DNA of 64,000 bases from Acidobacteriota bacterium (GCA_027307335.1 DAHUXD010000044.1:62001-126000); one strand, 5' to 3'. Counted from the stretch's first letter, positions 28,220 to 35,140 are shown. Notes: a model not told the origin generated them from the letters alone. Numbers and translations: made by a program.

Positions 28220-28250
28220 TCTCCGCCTCCGCTCCTCACGGGGATGACGT

Positions 28251-28979
28251 TTACGGCCACCACAACCCGAGTGCCTTCGAGAGGAACACCGCCATCTGCC
28301 GACGAGTGACGAGCGCGTCCGGACAGAAGTTTCCGTTCCCGCAACCCGACGTGATCCCCGCTCCCGCCAGCGCCTCGATGTACACGAAGCCGTAATCCGT
28401 GACGGGCACGTCCCCGAATTGAGGAGGGACCGGCGGCGGGCTGACCTGGAGCCGATAGCCGACGACGGCTCCGCTGAACGAGGTCGTGTCGTCGCCGTTC
28501 GGCCCGAAGGCGGTCTCCAGGAGCAGCCGGTGCTGCTGGTTGTCGACCGTGTAATTCAGGCCTGACAGATCGGCGAGCGCCTGCATGCATCCCTGGCCCG
28601 CGGCGCCCGTGATTTGCGTCAGGAGCGTCAGATTCGAATTGTCGGAGGACAGGTCATAGAGCAGCAGAAGGATCGAGCTGCCTCCGGACGGCTGCGAGTT
28701 GCAGAAGTCGAACTCCAGGTTCTGCAGCAGCGCCCCGGACGGCATCGAGGGCGACGCGAAGAAGAAGGACAGCGGGGTGAGCGCGTACCGGCGGGACGGG
28801 TTTCCGAAGTCGGAATAGACGACCGTGGACGAGGAGGGCGAGAACTGCCACTCCGGCACCGTCACGTAGCTCGTGTTCGTGGTTCCCCAGGTCTGCGGCG
28901 TTCCGGGCGACCTGGCGAGCGCCGCGTGGGCGGCGGTGGTCGCCGCCGCCATCAGGATCGAGATCGTTCTGGTTCTCAT
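28251..28979 (-). CDS. Secreted SLH-domain protein A
   Basis: 242 residues: signal peptide (MRTRTISILMAAATTAAHAA), a beta-rich N-terminal domain of about 165 residues, then one C-terminal S-layer-homology module. The first domain begins TWGTTNTSYVTVPEWQFSP and ends GYRLQVSPPP. The SLH module runs from FGDVPVTDYGFVYIEALAGA through GITSGCGNGNFCPD to RRQMAVFLSKALGL, with a CX5C pair. The protein ends three residues after the module (WWP). It is the last gene of a tandem set of four paralogues, 13 bases from its neighbour. A single SLH module is too few for classical S-layer binding, so the module may mediate export sorting or weaker wall or outer-membrane attachment. Ligand unknown. Confidence 0.8.
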   Translation of the reverse strand: MRTRTISILMAAATTAAHAALARSPGTPQTWGTTNTSYVTVPEWQFSPSSSTVVYSDFGNPSRRYALTPLSFFFASPSMPSGALLQNLEFDFCNSQPSGGSSILLLLYDLSSDNSNLTLLTQITGAAGQGCMQALADLSGLNYTVDNQQHRLLLETAFGPNGDDTTSFSGAVVGYRLQVSPPPVPPQFGDVPVTDYGFVYIEALAGAGITSGCGNGNFCPDALVTRRQMAVFLSKALGLWWP

Positions 28980-28992
28980 CGTCGCCTCCGCG

Positions 28993-30366
28993 TCAGTAGA
29001 AGGAGAGGCCGAGCGCCTTGGCCAGGAAGATGGCCATCTGGCGCCGCGTGACCGGACTGTTCGGACAGAAGTTCCCGCCCCCGCAGCCACCGGTGATCCC
29101 CGACGCCGCCAGCGCCTCGACGTATGCGAAGGCCGCGTCGGAAACCGGCACGTCCGCGAAGGTCGCCGCCGCCGGTGGCGGGCTCACCTGCAGCCGATAG
29201 TCCAATCGAGCGCCGAGGATTCGCGTCTGCGGGCCCAGGCTCGGCGACCCGGGAGCCCCGAAAAATACCCAGAGGATGAGCTTCGAGTCGCCGGCCGTGT
29301 AGCCGATATCCACCGCGCTGATGCTGGCGCAACCCGAGCCCGGGGTCGACGCCAGGTACACGAGATAGTTGAGAGGAGCATCGGAAACGTTCAAGCCCAG
29401 GGGCGGCGAACCCGCCGGCCGATCGTCACAGACGTCGAACTCGACGTTTTCGAGCAGAGCTCCCGGCGGAAGACTGACCGACGCTTCGAGACGCGGAGGA
29501 TCGACGACCGAATCCACGAGGTAACGCGAGAGCTGCGGCGGCCCCGTGTCTTCGTAATGATCGGTGTTGACATAAGGCCGGAACTGCCACTCGGGGACCG
29601 GAACACTCGTCAAGGTCTCTCCGAACCGATATGCCAGGCCGAGCGACCGCGACAGAAAGACGGCCATCTGACGGCGCGTGACCGACGAATCAGGGCAGAA
29701 GATGCCGGGACCGCAACCCGCCGTGATGCCCGCGGCCGCGACGGCCTCGATGTAACGGAATCCGGGGTCGGTGGACGGCACGTCGCTGAACGTCGGGTTG
29801 AGCGGCGGCCGGCTGACCTGCAGCTTGTACGTCAACGCGACGTCTCCGAGCATGGCGAACGTGCTGCCGGTTGGTCCAAAGATCGTCCATACGAGGAGGC
29901 GGTCCGAGACGTTCACGGTGTAGTTCTGCCCGCTCAGGTCCAACGTCTGCGACGCACAACCGCTGTTGGCCGATACCGTGACCGAGCCCAGGACTCCGAG
30001 GAAGTTCCCGGATGGGTCCGTCTTCTCCAGGAGCACCAGAAAGTCGTCGCCGCCCGGGGGATTCAAATTGCAGGCATAGACGCTCATCGTCTCGAGAAGG
30101 CCTCCGGCGGGAAGGTCGGGCCACGCATAGAACGCGCCGTACGGCGTCGTCGTCAAGAGCGTGTAGTTGCCCCCCTGCTGGTCGTGGAGGTACTGAGTCG
30201 TCGAATCGATCGGCGAGAAGTCGAACGCCGAGACCTTGTAGGTCGCGTCGTTCGTCGTACCGAACTTGGGCGCGGATGCGACGGGGCGCGGCTCGCCCGC
30301 GAGGCACGGGCCCCCGAGAAGCGCCAGGGCGGCGAGGGCGAGCGAGATTCGAGCCGTGGCTTTCAT
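28993..30366 (-). CDS. Secreted SLH-domain protein B, internally duplicated
   Basis: 457 residues, twice the unit seen in its neighbours. A signal peptide (1-23) is followed by N-domain 1 (about 34-185), SLH 1 (192-243, GITAGCGPGIFCPDSSVT), N-domain 2 (about 255-395) and SLH 2 (402-453, GITGGCGGGNFCPNSPVT), ending SFY. The second N-domain starts VPVPEWQFRPYVNTDHY, like the mature starts of proteins A and D, and has no signal of its own. This points to fusion of two adjacent paralogues by loss of a stop and signal. DLSGQNYTVNVSDRLLVW and PPGALLENVEFDVC are shared family landmarks. Start at the ATG at 30366, where a signal peptide begins. Gap to the next gene is 20 bases. Confidence 0.8.
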   Translation of the reverse strand: MKATARISLALAALALLGGPCLAGEPRPVASAPKFGTTNDATYKVSAFDFSPIDSTTQYLHDQQGGNYTLLTTTPYGAFYAWPDLPAGGLLETMSVYACNLNPPGGDDFLVLLEKTDPSGNFLGVLGSVTVSANSGCASQTLDLSGQNYTVNVSDRLLVWTIFGPTGSTFAMLGDVALTYKLQVSRPPLNPTFSDVPSTDPGFRYIEAVAAAGITAGCGPGIFCPDSSVTRRQMAVFLSRSLGLAYRFGETLTSVPVPEWQFRPYVNTDHYEDTGPPQLSRYLVDSVVDPPRLEASVSLPPGALLENVEFDVCDDRPAGSPPLGLNVSDAPLNYLVYLASTPGSGCASISAVDIGYTAGDSKLILWVFFGAPGSPSLGPQTRILGARLDYRLQVSPPPAAATFADVPVSDAAFAYVEALAASGITGGCGGGNFCPNSPVTRRQMAIFLAKALGLSFY

Positions 30367-30386
30367 GACTCCATCCGTTCCGTGCT

Positions 30387-31133
30387 TCACGGCCACTGCA
30401 GCCCGAGCGCCTTCGCGAGGAACACGGCCATCTGCCGGCGCGTCAGGGGCGAGTCCGGACAGTAGTTCCCCCCGCCGCAGCCGGCGGTGACGCCCGAGGC
30501 CACGAGCGCCTCGATGTACTGGAAGGCCGGGTCGCTCAACGGCACGTCGTTGAATGTCGGAAAACCCGGAGCCTCGCTGACCTGGAGAACGTAACCGATG
30601 ATCATGCCGCCGAGGAGCTCGCTCGTGCTATCCCCCGAACCCAAGAGAATGAGGGAGCCCACCGTGTTGTCCACGACGATGTTCTCGGCAGAAACGTCGG
30701 CGACCACCGCAGCGGGCCCGCCGTTGTAGGAGTCTCCCGTGCAGATGTATCCGAGCCCGCAGCCGCCGAGGCCCGCCGCCGGATGCGCCGTGCAGTTCTG
30801 ACCGAATTTGTCGCACTGGAAGAGGCTCCCCTGCACGGAATCGAAGTTGTCGGTATCGATGCCATCGAGCTCGACCGAGACGATCCTGGCGCCGGAAGGC
30901 AGCCGCAGCGGAGCCAGCATGCAGCCGCCCGCGCAGCCCAGCATGTAGCGAGCCTGGGTACCGATTCCCTGGCCATAGGTGAATCCGGAGCCAAACGGAA
31001 GGAACGCGATTCCCGGAACCTCGACGTAGGACACGGCGGTCGTTCCGTAGGTCTGCGGCTGCAGGGACTGTGCGCCGACAATCGAGCCAGCCATCCAGAG
31101 CCCGAGTGCAAGAAGCGAGCGACGAGGTTTCAT
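30387..31133 (-). CDS. Secreted SLH-domain protein C
   Basis: 248 residues with a signal peptide (MKPRRSLLALGLWMAGSIVGA), an N-domain richer in cysteine than its paralogues (MLGCAGGCML, FQCDKFGQNC, GGCGLGYIC), then LQVSEAPGF and one SLH module (FNDVPLSDPAFQYIEALVAS, GVTAGCGGGNYCPD), ending QWP. A second in-frame ATG at 31139 lies directly on the GGAG; the ATG at 31133 has that GGAG six bases upstream and is preferred. The cysteine pairs would be oxidised outside the cytoplasm. Its stop is 20 bases from gene B. Confidence 0.8.
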   Translation of the reverse strand: MKPRRSLLALGLWMAGSIVGAQSLQPQTYGTTAVSYVEVPGIAFLPFGSGFTYGQGIGTQARYMLGCAGGCMLAPLRLPSGARIVSVELDGIDTDNFDSVQGSLFQCDKFGQNCTAHPAAGLGGCGLGYICTGDSYNGGPAAVVADVSAENIVVDNTVGSLILLGSGDSTSELLGGMIIGYVLQVSEAPGFPTFNDVPLSDPAFQYIEALVASGVTAGCGGGNYCPDSPLTRRQMAVFLAKALGLQWP

Positions 31134-31144
31134 ATCCATCTCCT

Positions 31145-31897
31145 TCACGGCCACTGAAGCCCGAGCGCCTTCGCGAGGAACACCGCCATTTGGCCGCGCG
31201 TGAGCGGGTTGTTCGGGCAGTAGTTCCCACCGCCGCAGCCCGCCGTGATGCCCGAGGCGTAGAGCGCTTCGATGAACTGGAACTGCGGGTTCGACGTCGG
31301 CACGTCGCCGAAGTCGGGCGTCGGCGGAGCCGGGCTGACCTGGAGGCGGTAGAACAGGTTCACGCCGGAGATGGCCTGAGATCCATCTTGAGCATCGATC
31401 ACCGTCCCCAAGATCAGCTGGTTGTTGTAGTAGTTGACCTGGTAATTGAGCCCACTGAGGTCCGCGATCCGGATTTCGCCGCAGCCGTTTTGGGTCTGGC
31501 TGTAGACCCCGGCCGAGAGGGGGGTGATGTTCTCCCCGTCGTACCACGAGGTGTAGAGCTCGACCCCGAGCGTGTAGGCCGGATTGGGGTTGCTATTGCA
31601 GAAGTACACCTCGATGCCCGTGAGCAGCGCGCCGTTGGGCAGGCGCGGGACCGCCTCGAGGCAGTAGCCTCCGCAGTTCATCGTGTACCGTGAGAGCGTC
31701 CCGGGAAAAGCCGTGTCGTCCGTCGTGTAGCCGCCGTTCGTCGGAACGAACTCCGTGACCGGAACGTGGTAGATCGAGTCCTGACTCGTTCCGTAAGTCT
31801 TGGGCCGGGCTCGCGGCCCTTCCTCCGCTCGCGCCGGAGTGGACAAGCCGAACGCGAGCAAAGCCGATAACCCGAGGAGCACCCTCGGTCTCTTCAT
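31145..31897 (-). CDS. Secreted SLH-domain protein D
   Basis: 250 residues: signal peptide (MKRPRVLLGLSALLAFGLSTPARA), an N-domain with YGTSQDSIYHVPVTEFVP, MNCGGYCLEAVPRLPNGALL and DLSGLNYQVNYYNNQLIL, then LQVSPAPPTP and one SLH module (FGDVPTSNPQFQFIEALYAS, GITAGCGGGNYCPN), ending QWP. It is the first paralogue in the run. Its ATG overlaps the stop of the zinc-ribbon gene (ATGA), with GGGAGG upstream, so the two are coupled. The four paralogues share the plan but have diverged strongly in the N-domain, as expected for ligand- or surface-exposed proteins. Confidence 0.8.
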   Translation of the reverse strand: MKRPRVLLGLSALLAFGLSTPARAEEGPRARPKTYGTSQDSIYHVPVTEFVPTNGGYTTDDTAFPGTLSRYTMNCGGYCLEAVPRLPNGALLTGIEVYFCNSNPNPAYTLGVELYTSWYDGENITPLSAGVYSQTQNGCGEIRIADLSGLNYQVNYYNNQLILGTVIDAQDGSQAISGVNLFYRLQVSPAPPTPDFGDVPTSNPQFQFIEALYASGITAGCGGGNYCPNNPLTRGQMAVFLAKALGLQWP

Positions 31898-32235
31898 ACG
31901 CGCCTCCCTTCCAGTTCGTTCGCCGCACCTTCGATGGGTTTCCGGCCATGGCTCACGGGGTGCTCGATCCGCCCTCTCTGGTGGACCGTCGCGTTGGACT
32001 CTTCGAAGCCTCGCGTCGAGTCGGACGAGCGCCCGGAATGCGCACCACGCGAGCGGCTCCGGACGCAGGTGCCGGCGGTCACGAGACCGAGGATGAACAC
32101 GCCGACGGCGACGGCGCGCGTGACGCTCCCGCGCCCGTCCACCCGCCTCCCGCAATTGCTGCAGTAGCTCTCGTTTCCGGCGAGCGGGCAGCCGCAGCGC
32201 CGGCATGCAGCCGGGATCGAGGCGTCGTCGTTCAT
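31894..32235 (-). CDS. Small zinc-ribbon, single-helix membrane protein
   Basis: 113 residues. An N-terminal zinc ribbon (CRRCGCPLAGNESYCSNCGR, about 12-31) is followed by one membrane helix (TRAVAVGVFILGLVTAGTCV, about 39-58) and a charged, disordered tail. This is the plan of zinc-ribbon membrane proteins that act as small regulatory or scaffold subunits, with the ribbon cytosolic. It is the first gene of the SLH operon, overlapping gene D by ATGA. It faces the large winged-helix/TPR regulator across 100 bases, so it may link that regulator to expression or export of the SLH proteins (inference). Confidence 0.65.
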   Translation of the reverse strand: MNDDASIPAACRRCGCPLAGNESYCSNCGRRVDGRGSVTRAVAVGVFILGLVTAGTCVRSRSRGAHSGRSSDSTRGFEESNATVHQRGRIEHPVSHGRKPIEGAANELEGRRV

Positions 32236-32335
32236 GCGGGCGAGACTGCATCGGGCGCCGGGCCCCGGTCTTGAACCGTTCCGTCGTTTGTCTTTGGACC
32301 TTCGTTCCGCGAAAATTCGCCGGGAGCCCAAACCC

Positions 32336-35134
32336 TTGCCCGATCGAGAGATCTTCGAGTTCGGCCCCTACCGGCTGGACGTGGCCGAGCACCGGCTCCG
32401 CGACGGAGACCGCCCGGTGCTCTTGAAGCCGAAGGTCTTCGAGACGCTCGTCCTGCTCGTCCGGAATGCCGGACGTCTCCAGTCGAAGGCGGACTTGATG
32501 AAGGCGCTCTGGCCGGACGCCGTCGTGGACGAGACGAACCTCAACAAGAACATCTGGCTGATTCGCCGCGCCCTCGGCGGAAGCGGCGACTCGTCCGAGT
32601 ACATCGAGACCGTGCCGCGGATCGGGTATCGCTTCACCGCGAGCGTGCAGCGGGTCCGCTTGGATGAGGCGCCCTCGATATCGGAAGCCCTGCCGATGAC
32701 CGCCTCCCCGCTCGCGCTCGACGCCGTGTCCGCGGCGGAAAAGGCTCCGGTCGCCGCCGAGGCGCGCGAGCCCGGGCAGATGGCACCGGATCGGCGGCGG
32801 ACGCCGGCGATCGCGATCGCTGCGGCGTGTCTCGGCCTCCTCGCGATCGCGGCAATCGGATGGTGGCGATTCGCCCGAAGGACGGGCGCATCCGCGGACG
32901 CATCCTCCCGTCCGACGATCTCGGTCCTCGGATTCCGCAACCTCTCGAACCGTCCGGACCTCGACTGGATCGCCACCGCTCTCTCCGAGATGGTCCAGTC
33001 CGAGCTCGCGCCCGGATCAGCGTACCGGCTGATGCCCGTCGAGACCGCCGAACGGCTGCGGCGCGAACTCGCACTCGAGCGGCCGGGGAGCCTGTCGCCC
33101 GAGTCGCTCGGCCGCCTGCGGCGGGCCGCCGTCGTGGACGAAGTCGTCGGGGGCTCGTACGTGTCCTCCGGAGGAAGCGCGAACGACCCGCAGATCCGCA
33201 TCGACGTCCTCGTGCAGGACGCGCGCACGGGCGAGACCGTGGCTTCGGTGACCGAGACGGGCGAGGCTTCGCGACTGCTGGAGCTGGTGCCTTCGATCGG
33301 CACGCGGCTACGGCTTTCGCTTCGCGAGCCCGACGGTGCGCGCACCCCCGACCGCCGGCCGGAAACGCTCCCCCGCAACACGGCGGCGCTCCGTCTCTAC
33401 TCCGAGGGGCTGAGGAAGCTGCGCGACGCCGACGCGCTCGCCGCCCGAGACCTCCTCCTCGAGGCCGTGGCCGCGGAGCCCGAGTTCGCTCTCTCGCACG
33501 CGGCGCTCGGCCGCGCGTATGCGACGCTCGGGTACGAGGAGAAGGCGCGCCTCGAGCTGCAGCAGGCGTTCGAGAAGTCGGGCGGACTGCCCCCCAAGGA
33601 ACGGCTCGAGATCGAATCGTCCTACCGCGCCGCCAACAAGGAATGGGACAAGGCGATCGCGCTCTGTCAGGAGCTCGAGAGCCTCTCCCCCGACGACCTC
33701 GAGAACGGGCTCCGGTTCGCGTCCCTGGCGATCAATGCGTCGCGCCGACAGGACGCCCTCGCCGTGATTCAGCGGCTGCGCCGCCTTCCCCCGCCCACGG
33801 GGACCGATCCCCGCATCGACCTCCTCGAGTCGCGGGCGCTGCTCCCGAGCGACCCGAAGGCGGCGCTGGGAGCCGCGGAGCGCGGTCTCGCCGAGAGCCG
33901 CGCGCGGCACGAACGCTCGGTGGAGGCCAACGCGCTCCTCGACCGCGCGGTCGCGACGCAGACCCTCGGCAAGTCCGAGAAGGCTCCCGTCGAGGAGGCG
34001 ATGAAGATCTTCGCGGAGGTCGGAGACTCCGGCGGGGAAGCGCGCGCGGCGCACGTCCTCGGGAACATCCAGTTCGACGAGGGCGACGCGAACGGGGCGC
34101 GCATGTCCTTCCAGCGAGCGATCGACGTCTCCGACCGCATCGGCTACGTGCTGGAGAAGGCGGCGGCGGTGGCGAGTCTCTCGCGCGTCGCCTCGCTCCG
34201 CGGCGACAACGCCGAAGCCGAGCGCCTGATCGAGGAGGCCAACTCCATCTGGCGAGCCGTGCCCGACTACCGGCAGCTCCCGTGGGGTCTGAACGCTCTG
34301 GGCTCGATCCGGCTGTCTCACGGGCGCCTCGCCGAGGCCGAGGCGCTCCACCGCGAGGCCCTGAAGATGGGCGGGGATTGGGGAGACACCGGCTCCTACC
34401 GGCACGAGAGCTACAGCGGCCTCATCGCAGCGCTCGCGGCAGAGGGCCGGCTCGCCGAGGCCGCGACGGTGGCCGAGGAGGCCCTTCGGGCCAGTCGCCA
34501 GATGGGCGATCCGAGCTGGATCGCCCAGCACGCCGCCGAGAGCGGCACGCTGGCCTTCGAGCGGGGACGCCTCGCCGACGCGGACCGGCTGTTCACGGAG
34601 TCCCTGGCGCTCCGCCAGCAGAAAGAGGAGTACACGGTCCCCGAGAGCGAGCTGCTGATCGCGACCCTGCGCCTCGAGGAGCGGAAGTGGGACGACGCGC
34701 GGCGGCTCGCGGAGAAGGCGTCCCGGGAGTTCGCCGCCGCGGGCCGCAAGACCGATCAGGCCGACGCCGATGCCGTGATCGCCGAGGCCCTGCTGTCATC
34801 CGGGAAGAAGGACGAGGCGAGGAAGACCGTCGAGGCGACCGGCCGGCTCCTCGACGAGAACGCCTCGTCCGACGCCCGCGTTCCGGTCCTCATCGCCAGC
34901 GCCCGGGTCGAGAGCGCTCTCGGCCGCGCGGAGGCGGCCCGCTCCGACATCGATGCCGCGACGCGATGGGCGGAGAAGATCGCCTGGAGGAACCTCGTGC
35001 TCGAGGCGCGGCTCGCCGCCGCCGAGCTCGACGGCGGCGCGGGCGCCGCGGCGGTCGCGGCGGATGCGAGAGCGCTGGGGTTCGAGCGGATCGCGCGCCG
35101 CGCGGATCGGCTCGCGGGCCGCCCCGTCTCCTAG
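32336..35134 (+). CDS. Membrane-tethered winged-helix regulator with TolB-like and TPR domains
   Basis: 932 residues from a TTG at 32336, which begins right before the domain; GGGAG lies ten bases upstream. Residues 5-103 form an OmpR/CadC-type DNA-binding domain (FEFGPYRLDVAEHRL, LKPKVFETLVLLVRNAGRLQ, LWPDAVVDETNLNKNIWLIR, IETVPRIGYRF). One membrane helix (157-178) follows, then an extracytoplasmic region resembling the N-terminal domain of TolB/FlgO-type proteins (ISVLGFRNLSNRPDLDWIATALSEMV, about 190-330). About 600 residues of TPRs complete it. This CadC-like arrangement senses outside and binds DNA inside without a phosphorelay, and is frequent in acidobacteria. It is divergent from the SLH operon, its most likely target; the two share one 100-base intergenic region. 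Confidence 0.85.
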   Translation: MPDREIFEFGPYRLDVAEHRLRDGDRPVLLKPKVFETLVLLVRNAGRLQSKADLMKALWPDAVVDETNLNKNIWLIRRALGGSGDSSEYIETVPRIGYRFTASVQRVRLDEAPSISEALPMTASPLALDAVSAAEKAPVAAEAREPGQMAPDRRRTPAIAIAAACLGLLAIAAIGWWRFARRTGASADASSRPTISVLGFRNLSNRPDLDWIATALSEMVQSELAPGSAYRLMPVETAERLRRELALERPGSLSPESLGRLRRAAVVDEVVGGSYVSSGGSANDPQIRIDVLVQDARTGETVASVTETGEASRLLELVPSIGTRLRLSLREPDGARTPDRRPETLPRNTAALRLYSEGLRKLRDADALAARDLLLEAVAAEPEFALSHAALGRAYATLGYEEKARLELQQAFEKSGGLPPKERLEIESSYRAANKEWDKAIALCQELESLSPDDLENGLRFASLAINASRRQDALAVIQRLRRLPPPTGTDPRIDLLESRALLPSDPKAALGAAERGLAESRARHERSVEANALLDRAVATQTLGKSEKAPVEEAMKIFAEVGDSGGEARAAHVLGNIQFDEGDANGARMSFQRAIDVSDRIGYVLEKAAAVASLSRVASLRGDNAEAERLIEEANSIWRAVPDYRQLPWGLNALGSIRLSHGRLAEAEALHREALKMGGDWGDTGSYRHESYSGLIAALAAEGRLAEAATVAEEALRASRQMGDPSWIAQHAAESGTLAFERGRLADADRLFTESLALRQQKEEYTVPESELLIATLRLEERKWDDARRLAEKASREFAAAGRKTDQADADAVIAEALLSSGKKDEARKTVEATGRLLDENASSDARVPVLIASARVESALGRAEAARSDIDAATRWAEKIAWRNLVLEARLAAAELDGGAGAAAVAADARALGFERIARRADRLAGRPVS

Positions 35135-35140
35135 GTCCGG

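Follow-up and report, generated by a model that had tools for sequence, protein, structure and literature searches.

Several families of membrane-tethered regulators and surface proteins provide the closest points of comparison for the locus described here. CadC/ToxR-like transmembrane transcription regulators (TTRs) combine an N-terminal OmpR/CadC-type winged helix with a single transmembrane (TM) segment, followed by an alpha/beta part and a helical repeat part that in CadC lie outside the membrane (PMC9214523), and their genes adjoin the likely target operon. In the PsaE/PsaF and MarT/FidL systems, such a regulator is linked to a surface protein that it activates, the pH6 antigen and MisL, respectively (PMC9214523), while in ToxR/ToxS and VtrA/VtrC a co-directional downstream gene encodes the periplasmic partner. 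A study of TTR distribution reports enrichment in Acidobacteriae, and its main text is silent on TPR sensors and on adjacent or divergent genes (PMC10269533). Among surface proteins, Sap, SpaA, SbsB, and the diderm SlpA/OmpM carry SLH domains and are anchored through CsaB-pyruvylated polymers. Within the SLH module, the TRAE motif binds pyruvate and a Trp binds sugar (PMC10628300), and the coupling of SLH proteins to CsaB is established elsewhere (PMC6801904, PMC10628300). Our literature search on SLH or CadC-like systems of acidobacteria turned up no closer counterpart.

The locus lies in a 64,000-nt stretch of an Acidobacteriota genome (hereafter the window; its coordinates are those of contig C21 of genome G000 minus 62000). 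It shares with the TTRs the overall regulator plan and the position of the regulator gene beside a likely target operon, as judged from gene arrangement. It differs from CadC in a much longer TPR coil, in place of the short helical domain, and in a putative target that encodes surface proteins and is divergent rather than co-directional. Unlike in PsaE/PsaF and MarT/FidL, no periplasmic co-component gene follows the regulator, where the next gene is the convergent uvrD, 6 bp off; a zinc-ribbon membrane protein is encoded instead, the surface proteins and their anchor are of another kind, and control is suggested by gene order. The SLH proteins resemble those named above in a PF00395 module above the cut-off, the TR motif, CsaB in the genome, and export, the last by signal peptide, but have a single SLH module in each unit where those have three, a Cys pair, Phe in place of Trp, and a small jelly-roll-like beta domain, in an acidobacterial host.

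Architecture of the locus

The first-pass annotation had proposed five tightly spaced leftward genes, with a 932-residue regulator facing them. ORF calling bore this out, with gaps from ZR to SLH4 of −4, 11, 20, and 13 bp (Table 1). The 100-bp distance to the regulator gene depends on its TTG start, and the regulators of two relatives align well from near this position. Long ORFs, signal peptides recognised by eye in SLH1–4, and conservation of the family elsewhere in the genome rule out chance ORFs. GC content is 64–66% in the SLH genes relative to a window average of 71%, and is not lowered in the regulator gene.

Table 1 Features of the regulator–SLH locus in window coordinates.
Feature	Position	Strand	Description
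SLH4	28251..28979	−	signal peptide, beta domain, and one SLH module (28290–28418); 242 aa; PF00395 28.9 bits (cut-off 20.8)
SLH3	28993..30366	−	signal peptide and two tandem beta+SLH units (modules 29662–29793 and 29032–29160); 457 aa
SLH2	30387..31133	−	signal peptide, beta domain, and one SLH module (30426–30557); 248 aa
SLH1	31145..31897	−	signal peptide, beta domain, and one SLH module (31184–31312); 250 aa
ZR	31894..32235	−	zinc ribbon CxxC-x10-CxxC (about 32143–32205) and one hydrophobic segment; 113 aa; 4-bp overlap with the SLH1 start
Shared upstream region	32236..32335		100 bp; candidate region for control of the two transcription units
REG	32336..35134	+	CadC-like regulator; 932 aa; TTG start
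REG, winged helix	32411..32635		Trans_reg_C
REG, TM segment	about 32801–32869		
REG, alpha/beta region	about 32918–33322		TolB/CsgG-like
REG, TPR coil	about 33380–35113		
Whole cassette	28220..35140		all between the stops of pgeF (28219) and uvrD (35141); ~6.9 kb

The regulator (REG) contains a Trans_reg_C winged helix above the cut-off (E 4.5e-14), and a profile built from REG and two relatives matches the DNA-binding domain of CadC (5ju7, E 1.1e-9) and ToxR. A single hydrophobic segment (residues 156–178, hydropathy 2.35 at 158–176) is the sole such stretch in the protein, and TPRs cover most of the sequence after it. A two-sequence structural model has three parts: the winged helix (51–85 pLDDT), a TM helix (159–182) with an alpha/beta domain of low confidence (195–329), and a TPR coil mostly above 75 pLDDT (349–926). 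The winged helix, TM segment, and TPRs of the earlier annotation are thus retained, while its TolB-like domain corresponds to a sub-threshold CsgG match (E 0.0027) and the low-confidence modelled alpha/beta domain. The plan resembles that of CadC with its extramembrane alpha/beta and helical repeat parts, and from its topology the alpha/beta and TPR region of REG would lie outside the inner membrane. Proteins matching only via the TPR half and lacking the winged helix, such as a kinase in G007 (C82), were left out of the regulator relatives.

The small protein ZR had been annotated as a zinc-ribbon membrane protein. Its four Cys are correctly spaced in the expected pattern, but the Zn_Ribbon_1 match stays below the curated Pfam cut-off (E 7e-4, 19.7 bits vs 25). 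The coding score of the gene is near zero, yet GC3 is 0.83 in frame versus 0.64 and 0.61 in the other frames. A zinc-ribbon homologue holds the same place in genome G004, with 15 of 26 residues identical over the ribbon. Since N-terminal double-CxxC proteins are rare (4/1016 called genes), the shared ribbon is unlikely to have arisen by chance, although it is seen in two loci. The ribbon of ZR is N-terminal and probably cytosolic.

SLH proteins and their proposed anchoring

All four SLH proteins match PF00395 above the curated cut-off (28.9–67.8 bits vs 20.8). The plan of one beta domain plus one SLH module that had been assigned to each holds for SLH1, SLH2, and SLH4, but SLH3 contains two such units and two modules, so that four genes encode five units. 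No Pfam or NCBIfam family matches the beta region, a CUB match (E 0.16) being below the cut-off. An AlphaFold model from the five units of the window contains about ten strands, with pLDDT of about 75 in the beta region and poor confidence elsewhere. In Foldseek searches with the beta model, the best PDB matches were largely carbohydrate-binding modules, at target TM-scores of about 0.5–0.6, and other jelly rolls. This supports a predicted fold of the jelly-roll class and does not imply a ligand.

The arrangement of three tandem modules is absent from these proteins: each beta unit has one module, and the two modules of SLH3 are parted by a beta domain. In the TRAE motif, TR is invariant in all five modules of the window, Glu is replaced by Gln, and the position of the sugar-binding Trp is occupied by Phe. 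Canonical SLH anchors have three modules, so the single modules probably act as trimers, rebuilding a three-module anchor; alone they may bind weakly. Trimers with one SLH module per chain are known from OmpM (PMC10628300).

Two Cys replace the usual Tyr and Arg of the SLH turn (GC..GNYCP) in 44 of 44 modules picked by pattern, 27 of them in G000 and 17 in other genomes of the class; one example is the module of SLH1. The pair is absent in SbsB. These sequences suggest a disulfide-stapled variant of the SLH module.

The window genome contains 75 SLH matches and about 14 diverged beta-SLH units scattered over the genome. In a tree of these units, the five from the operon do not form one clade, and well-supported branches force at least three changes: SLH2 groups with copies on C53 and C13, SLH1 weakly with a copy on C38, and both units of SLH3 and that of SLH4 with C65. 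The operon is therefore an assortment of subtypes, and the idea that its SLH genes were recently duplicated in place is rejected. At the C38 locus (L120:9375–10440), an SLH2-type beta-SLH gene is split over two frames by a frameshift or an assembly error, within a cluster of three units that has no regulator.

A CsaB-type pyruvyltransferase is encoded in the same genome at C16:121790–122755 (E 4.9e-60; 203.8 bits, slightly below the cut-off of 213.1). Across 61 genomes of the class, a strong CsaB match was found in 13 of 13 genomes with at least three SLH matches vs 1 of 48 others (p 2e-12, uncorrected for kinship), and the same-family genomes G001 and G002 have neither SLH-richness nor CsaB. 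This co-occurrence, together with the TR motif, supports anchoring to a pyruvylated polymer. The CsaB-like part is N-terminal in a 1287-aa fusion with glycosyltransferase-like parts (L280:779–4642, C16:121779–125642), with three SLH genes at a distance of a few kb.

Conservation of the divergent arrangement

In order to determine whether the divergent arrangement is conserved, as the first-pass annotation had recommended checking, we compared regulator loci in other acidobacteria. The general layout recurs across the phylum, so the lack of conservation that the annotation had named as a refuting outcome was not observed. The SLH cargo is not conserved with it, and most partners are genes of other kinds. 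The closest regulators are found in G004 (C211; 39% identity over the full length, from another family) and G006 (C142; truncated by the contig end), and each has genes for exported proteins diverging from it. Across a gap of 97 bp from the G004 regulator come genes for a membrane protein of 102 aa, the zinc-ribbon membrane protein, and a secreted protein of roughly 650 aa; the G006 regulator has a secreted protein directly opposite.

Scanning 84,980 genomes gave 80 regulator loci, dominated by Acidobacteriota, and these were pooled with loci from the class to give a sample of 94 regulators. A divergent upstream gene is present for 68/94 regulators (72%) vs 307/802 control genes (38%; p 4e-10), and among tight divergent pairs (gap up to 250 bp) a home-made heuristic detects signal peptides in 21/34 partners (62%) vs 41/130 control divergent pairs (32%; p 0.0025), both p values treating relatives as independent. 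Counted by partner family, signal peptides occur in 12/22, and the secreted link is therefore a tendency, not a rule. Other tight pairs of a regulator and a secreted gene have gaps of 82–128 bp.

Within G000, four long CadC-like regulators (on C21, C65, C48, and C7) each lie 95–105 bp from a facing gene for a small membrane protein or a secreted protein. The regulator on C65 (115–117k), which differs from REG, faces two SLH genes across 105 bp and provides the second clear regulator–SLH pair, while those on C48 and C7 have other secreted genes opposite at 95–96 bp. No such regulator adjoins the beta-SLH loci on C38, C65:157k, C13, C23, and C7:61k of G000, nor those in G054, G021, and G033. Beta-SLH expression thus needs no such regulator, and the combination of an SLH operon with this regulator is not itself widespread. 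At seven loci of other Acidobacteriota (L200, L276, L226, L243, L268, L202, and L224), a small protein carrying a WCxxCG Cys pair is encoded divergently from a CadC-like regulator; at L200 and L276 a secreted protein follows, giving the same layout with a different small Cys protein.

Other regulatory genes accompany SLH genes elsewhere. On C16 of G000 (L127:4294–10421), two SLH genes are directly followed by genes for another type of regulator, an OmpR-type response regulator and a histidine kinase. On C53 (L121:5261–10091), two beta-SLH genes and one multi-SLH gene surround a gene for a winged-helix protein of 223 aa that looks FHA-like in its C-terminal part. In two genera, beta-SLH arrays of six units (G054 C91, L133) and two units (G033 C15, L135) adjoin the same 666-aa gene, with no CadC-like regulator.

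The block from SLH4 to the regulator gene sits exactly between the stops of pgeF and uvrD. In the same-family genomes G001 and G002 (L302 and L303), glmU-glmS-uvrD and pgeF-gatB-ftsE-ftsX are syntenic and the block is absent, with the ends of uvrD and pgeF about 10–26 bp apart and nothing between them. Because the block is absent as a single piece from both genomes, we view the regulator and the operon as a single cassette, which was either gained in the window genome or lost in G001 and G002; two genomes fit either history. No transposase was found at the cassette, and a search of its ends and of the empty-site sequences for direct or inverted repeats gave short GC-rich matches only (10 bp), so we do not claim a mobile-element mechanism.

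Consensus scans for promoters and terminators stayed at the chance level, and no sigma-70 promoter was found in the intergenic region. When 17 intergenic regions were compared by eye, the sole shared element was an AT-rich stretch resembling TANNATTCG on the side of the regulator, which is probably a −10 element, and no operator was recognised.

Proposed function and alternative readings

On balance, we favour the interpretation in which a one-component switch of the CadC type controls the surface-protein operon that diverges from it, the two travelling together as a cassette. The alpha/beta and TPR region of the regulator would lie outside the inner membrane and sense a cue there, be it a ligand or envelope state. 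The winged helix, still tethered to the membrane, would bind the intergenic region and switch the operon, and probably also the regulator's own gene. The products of SLH1–4 would reach the cell surface, where their SLH modules would attach to a polymer pyruvylated by the CsaB-type enzyme and their variable jelly-roll domains would face outward, perhaps binding glycans. ZR most likely tunes either switching or SLH protein export, the weakest step of this explanation. Against the interpretation stand the lack of a recognisable binding site or promoter, the beta-SLH clusters with no regulator beside them, the varied partners of the regulator family, the possibly weak binding of single SLH modules, and the Phe in place of Trp.

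Regulator and operon may instead be mere neighbours that were inserted together by chance, with the regulator acting on itself or on distant genes and the SLH promoter being constitutive or under unrelated control. The absence of a regulator from most beta-SLH clusters, the diversity of partner genes in the regulator family, and the lack of a recognisable operator or promoter all point in this direction. However, the enrichment of divergent orientation in the regulator family, the behaviour of the block as one unit in synteny, and the recurrence of the zinc-ribbon gene beside a relative of the regulator make this reading unlikely in our judgement. The last of these observations also bears on a two-part sensor in which ZR is a co-component of the regulator, comparable to ToxS for ToxR (a co-component idea discussed in PMC9214523), and the SLH proteins are the downstream read-out. 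A zinc-ribbon membrane gene is found opposite the regulator in two families, and the WCxxCG proteins hold the same place at other acidobacterial loci, although they may not be homologous to the zinc ribbon. Known co-components are periplasmic and encoded co-directionally with the regulator (PMC9214523), whereas the ZR gene is divergent and its ribbon probably cytosolic, and we regard such a sensor as distinctly improbable.

The SLH proteins could also be structural, serving as S-layer subunits or as a tether of the outer membrane rather than as outward binders, with the regulator acting as an envelope-stress switch. SLH proteins are abundant in a genome that also encodes CsaB, and SLH modules tether the outer membrane to the wall in some diderms (PMC10628300). 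No beta barrel is present in these SLH proteins, however, and the diverged, scattered beta-SLH paralogues resemble a variable repertoire more than a single lattice protein, so a structural role is doubtful. Returning to the switch with its own divergent operon, a broader version would have Acidobacteriota using exchangeable cassettes of one switch and one surface product, each pairing a CadC-like TPR regulator with a small Cys or zinc protein and interchangeable secreted cargo opposite it. In the present locus, the cargo would consist of single-SLH subtypes assembled into a hetero-trimeric three-SLH anchor with mixed jelly rolls, and the TPR coil would sense the cargo or its ligand; this extension is speculative, and we think it improbable as a whole.

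Acidobacteria are abundant in soil and their surface biology is little known. Their CadC-like regulators are numerous, and to our knowledge the target is known for hardly any of them. Should the cassette logic be correct, the target of such a regulator could be read from its divergent neighbour, and dozens of orphan regulators would become testable. The co-occurrence of SLH proteins with CsaB, in turn, offers a clue to the way in which bacteria of this class retain their SLH proteins on the cell.
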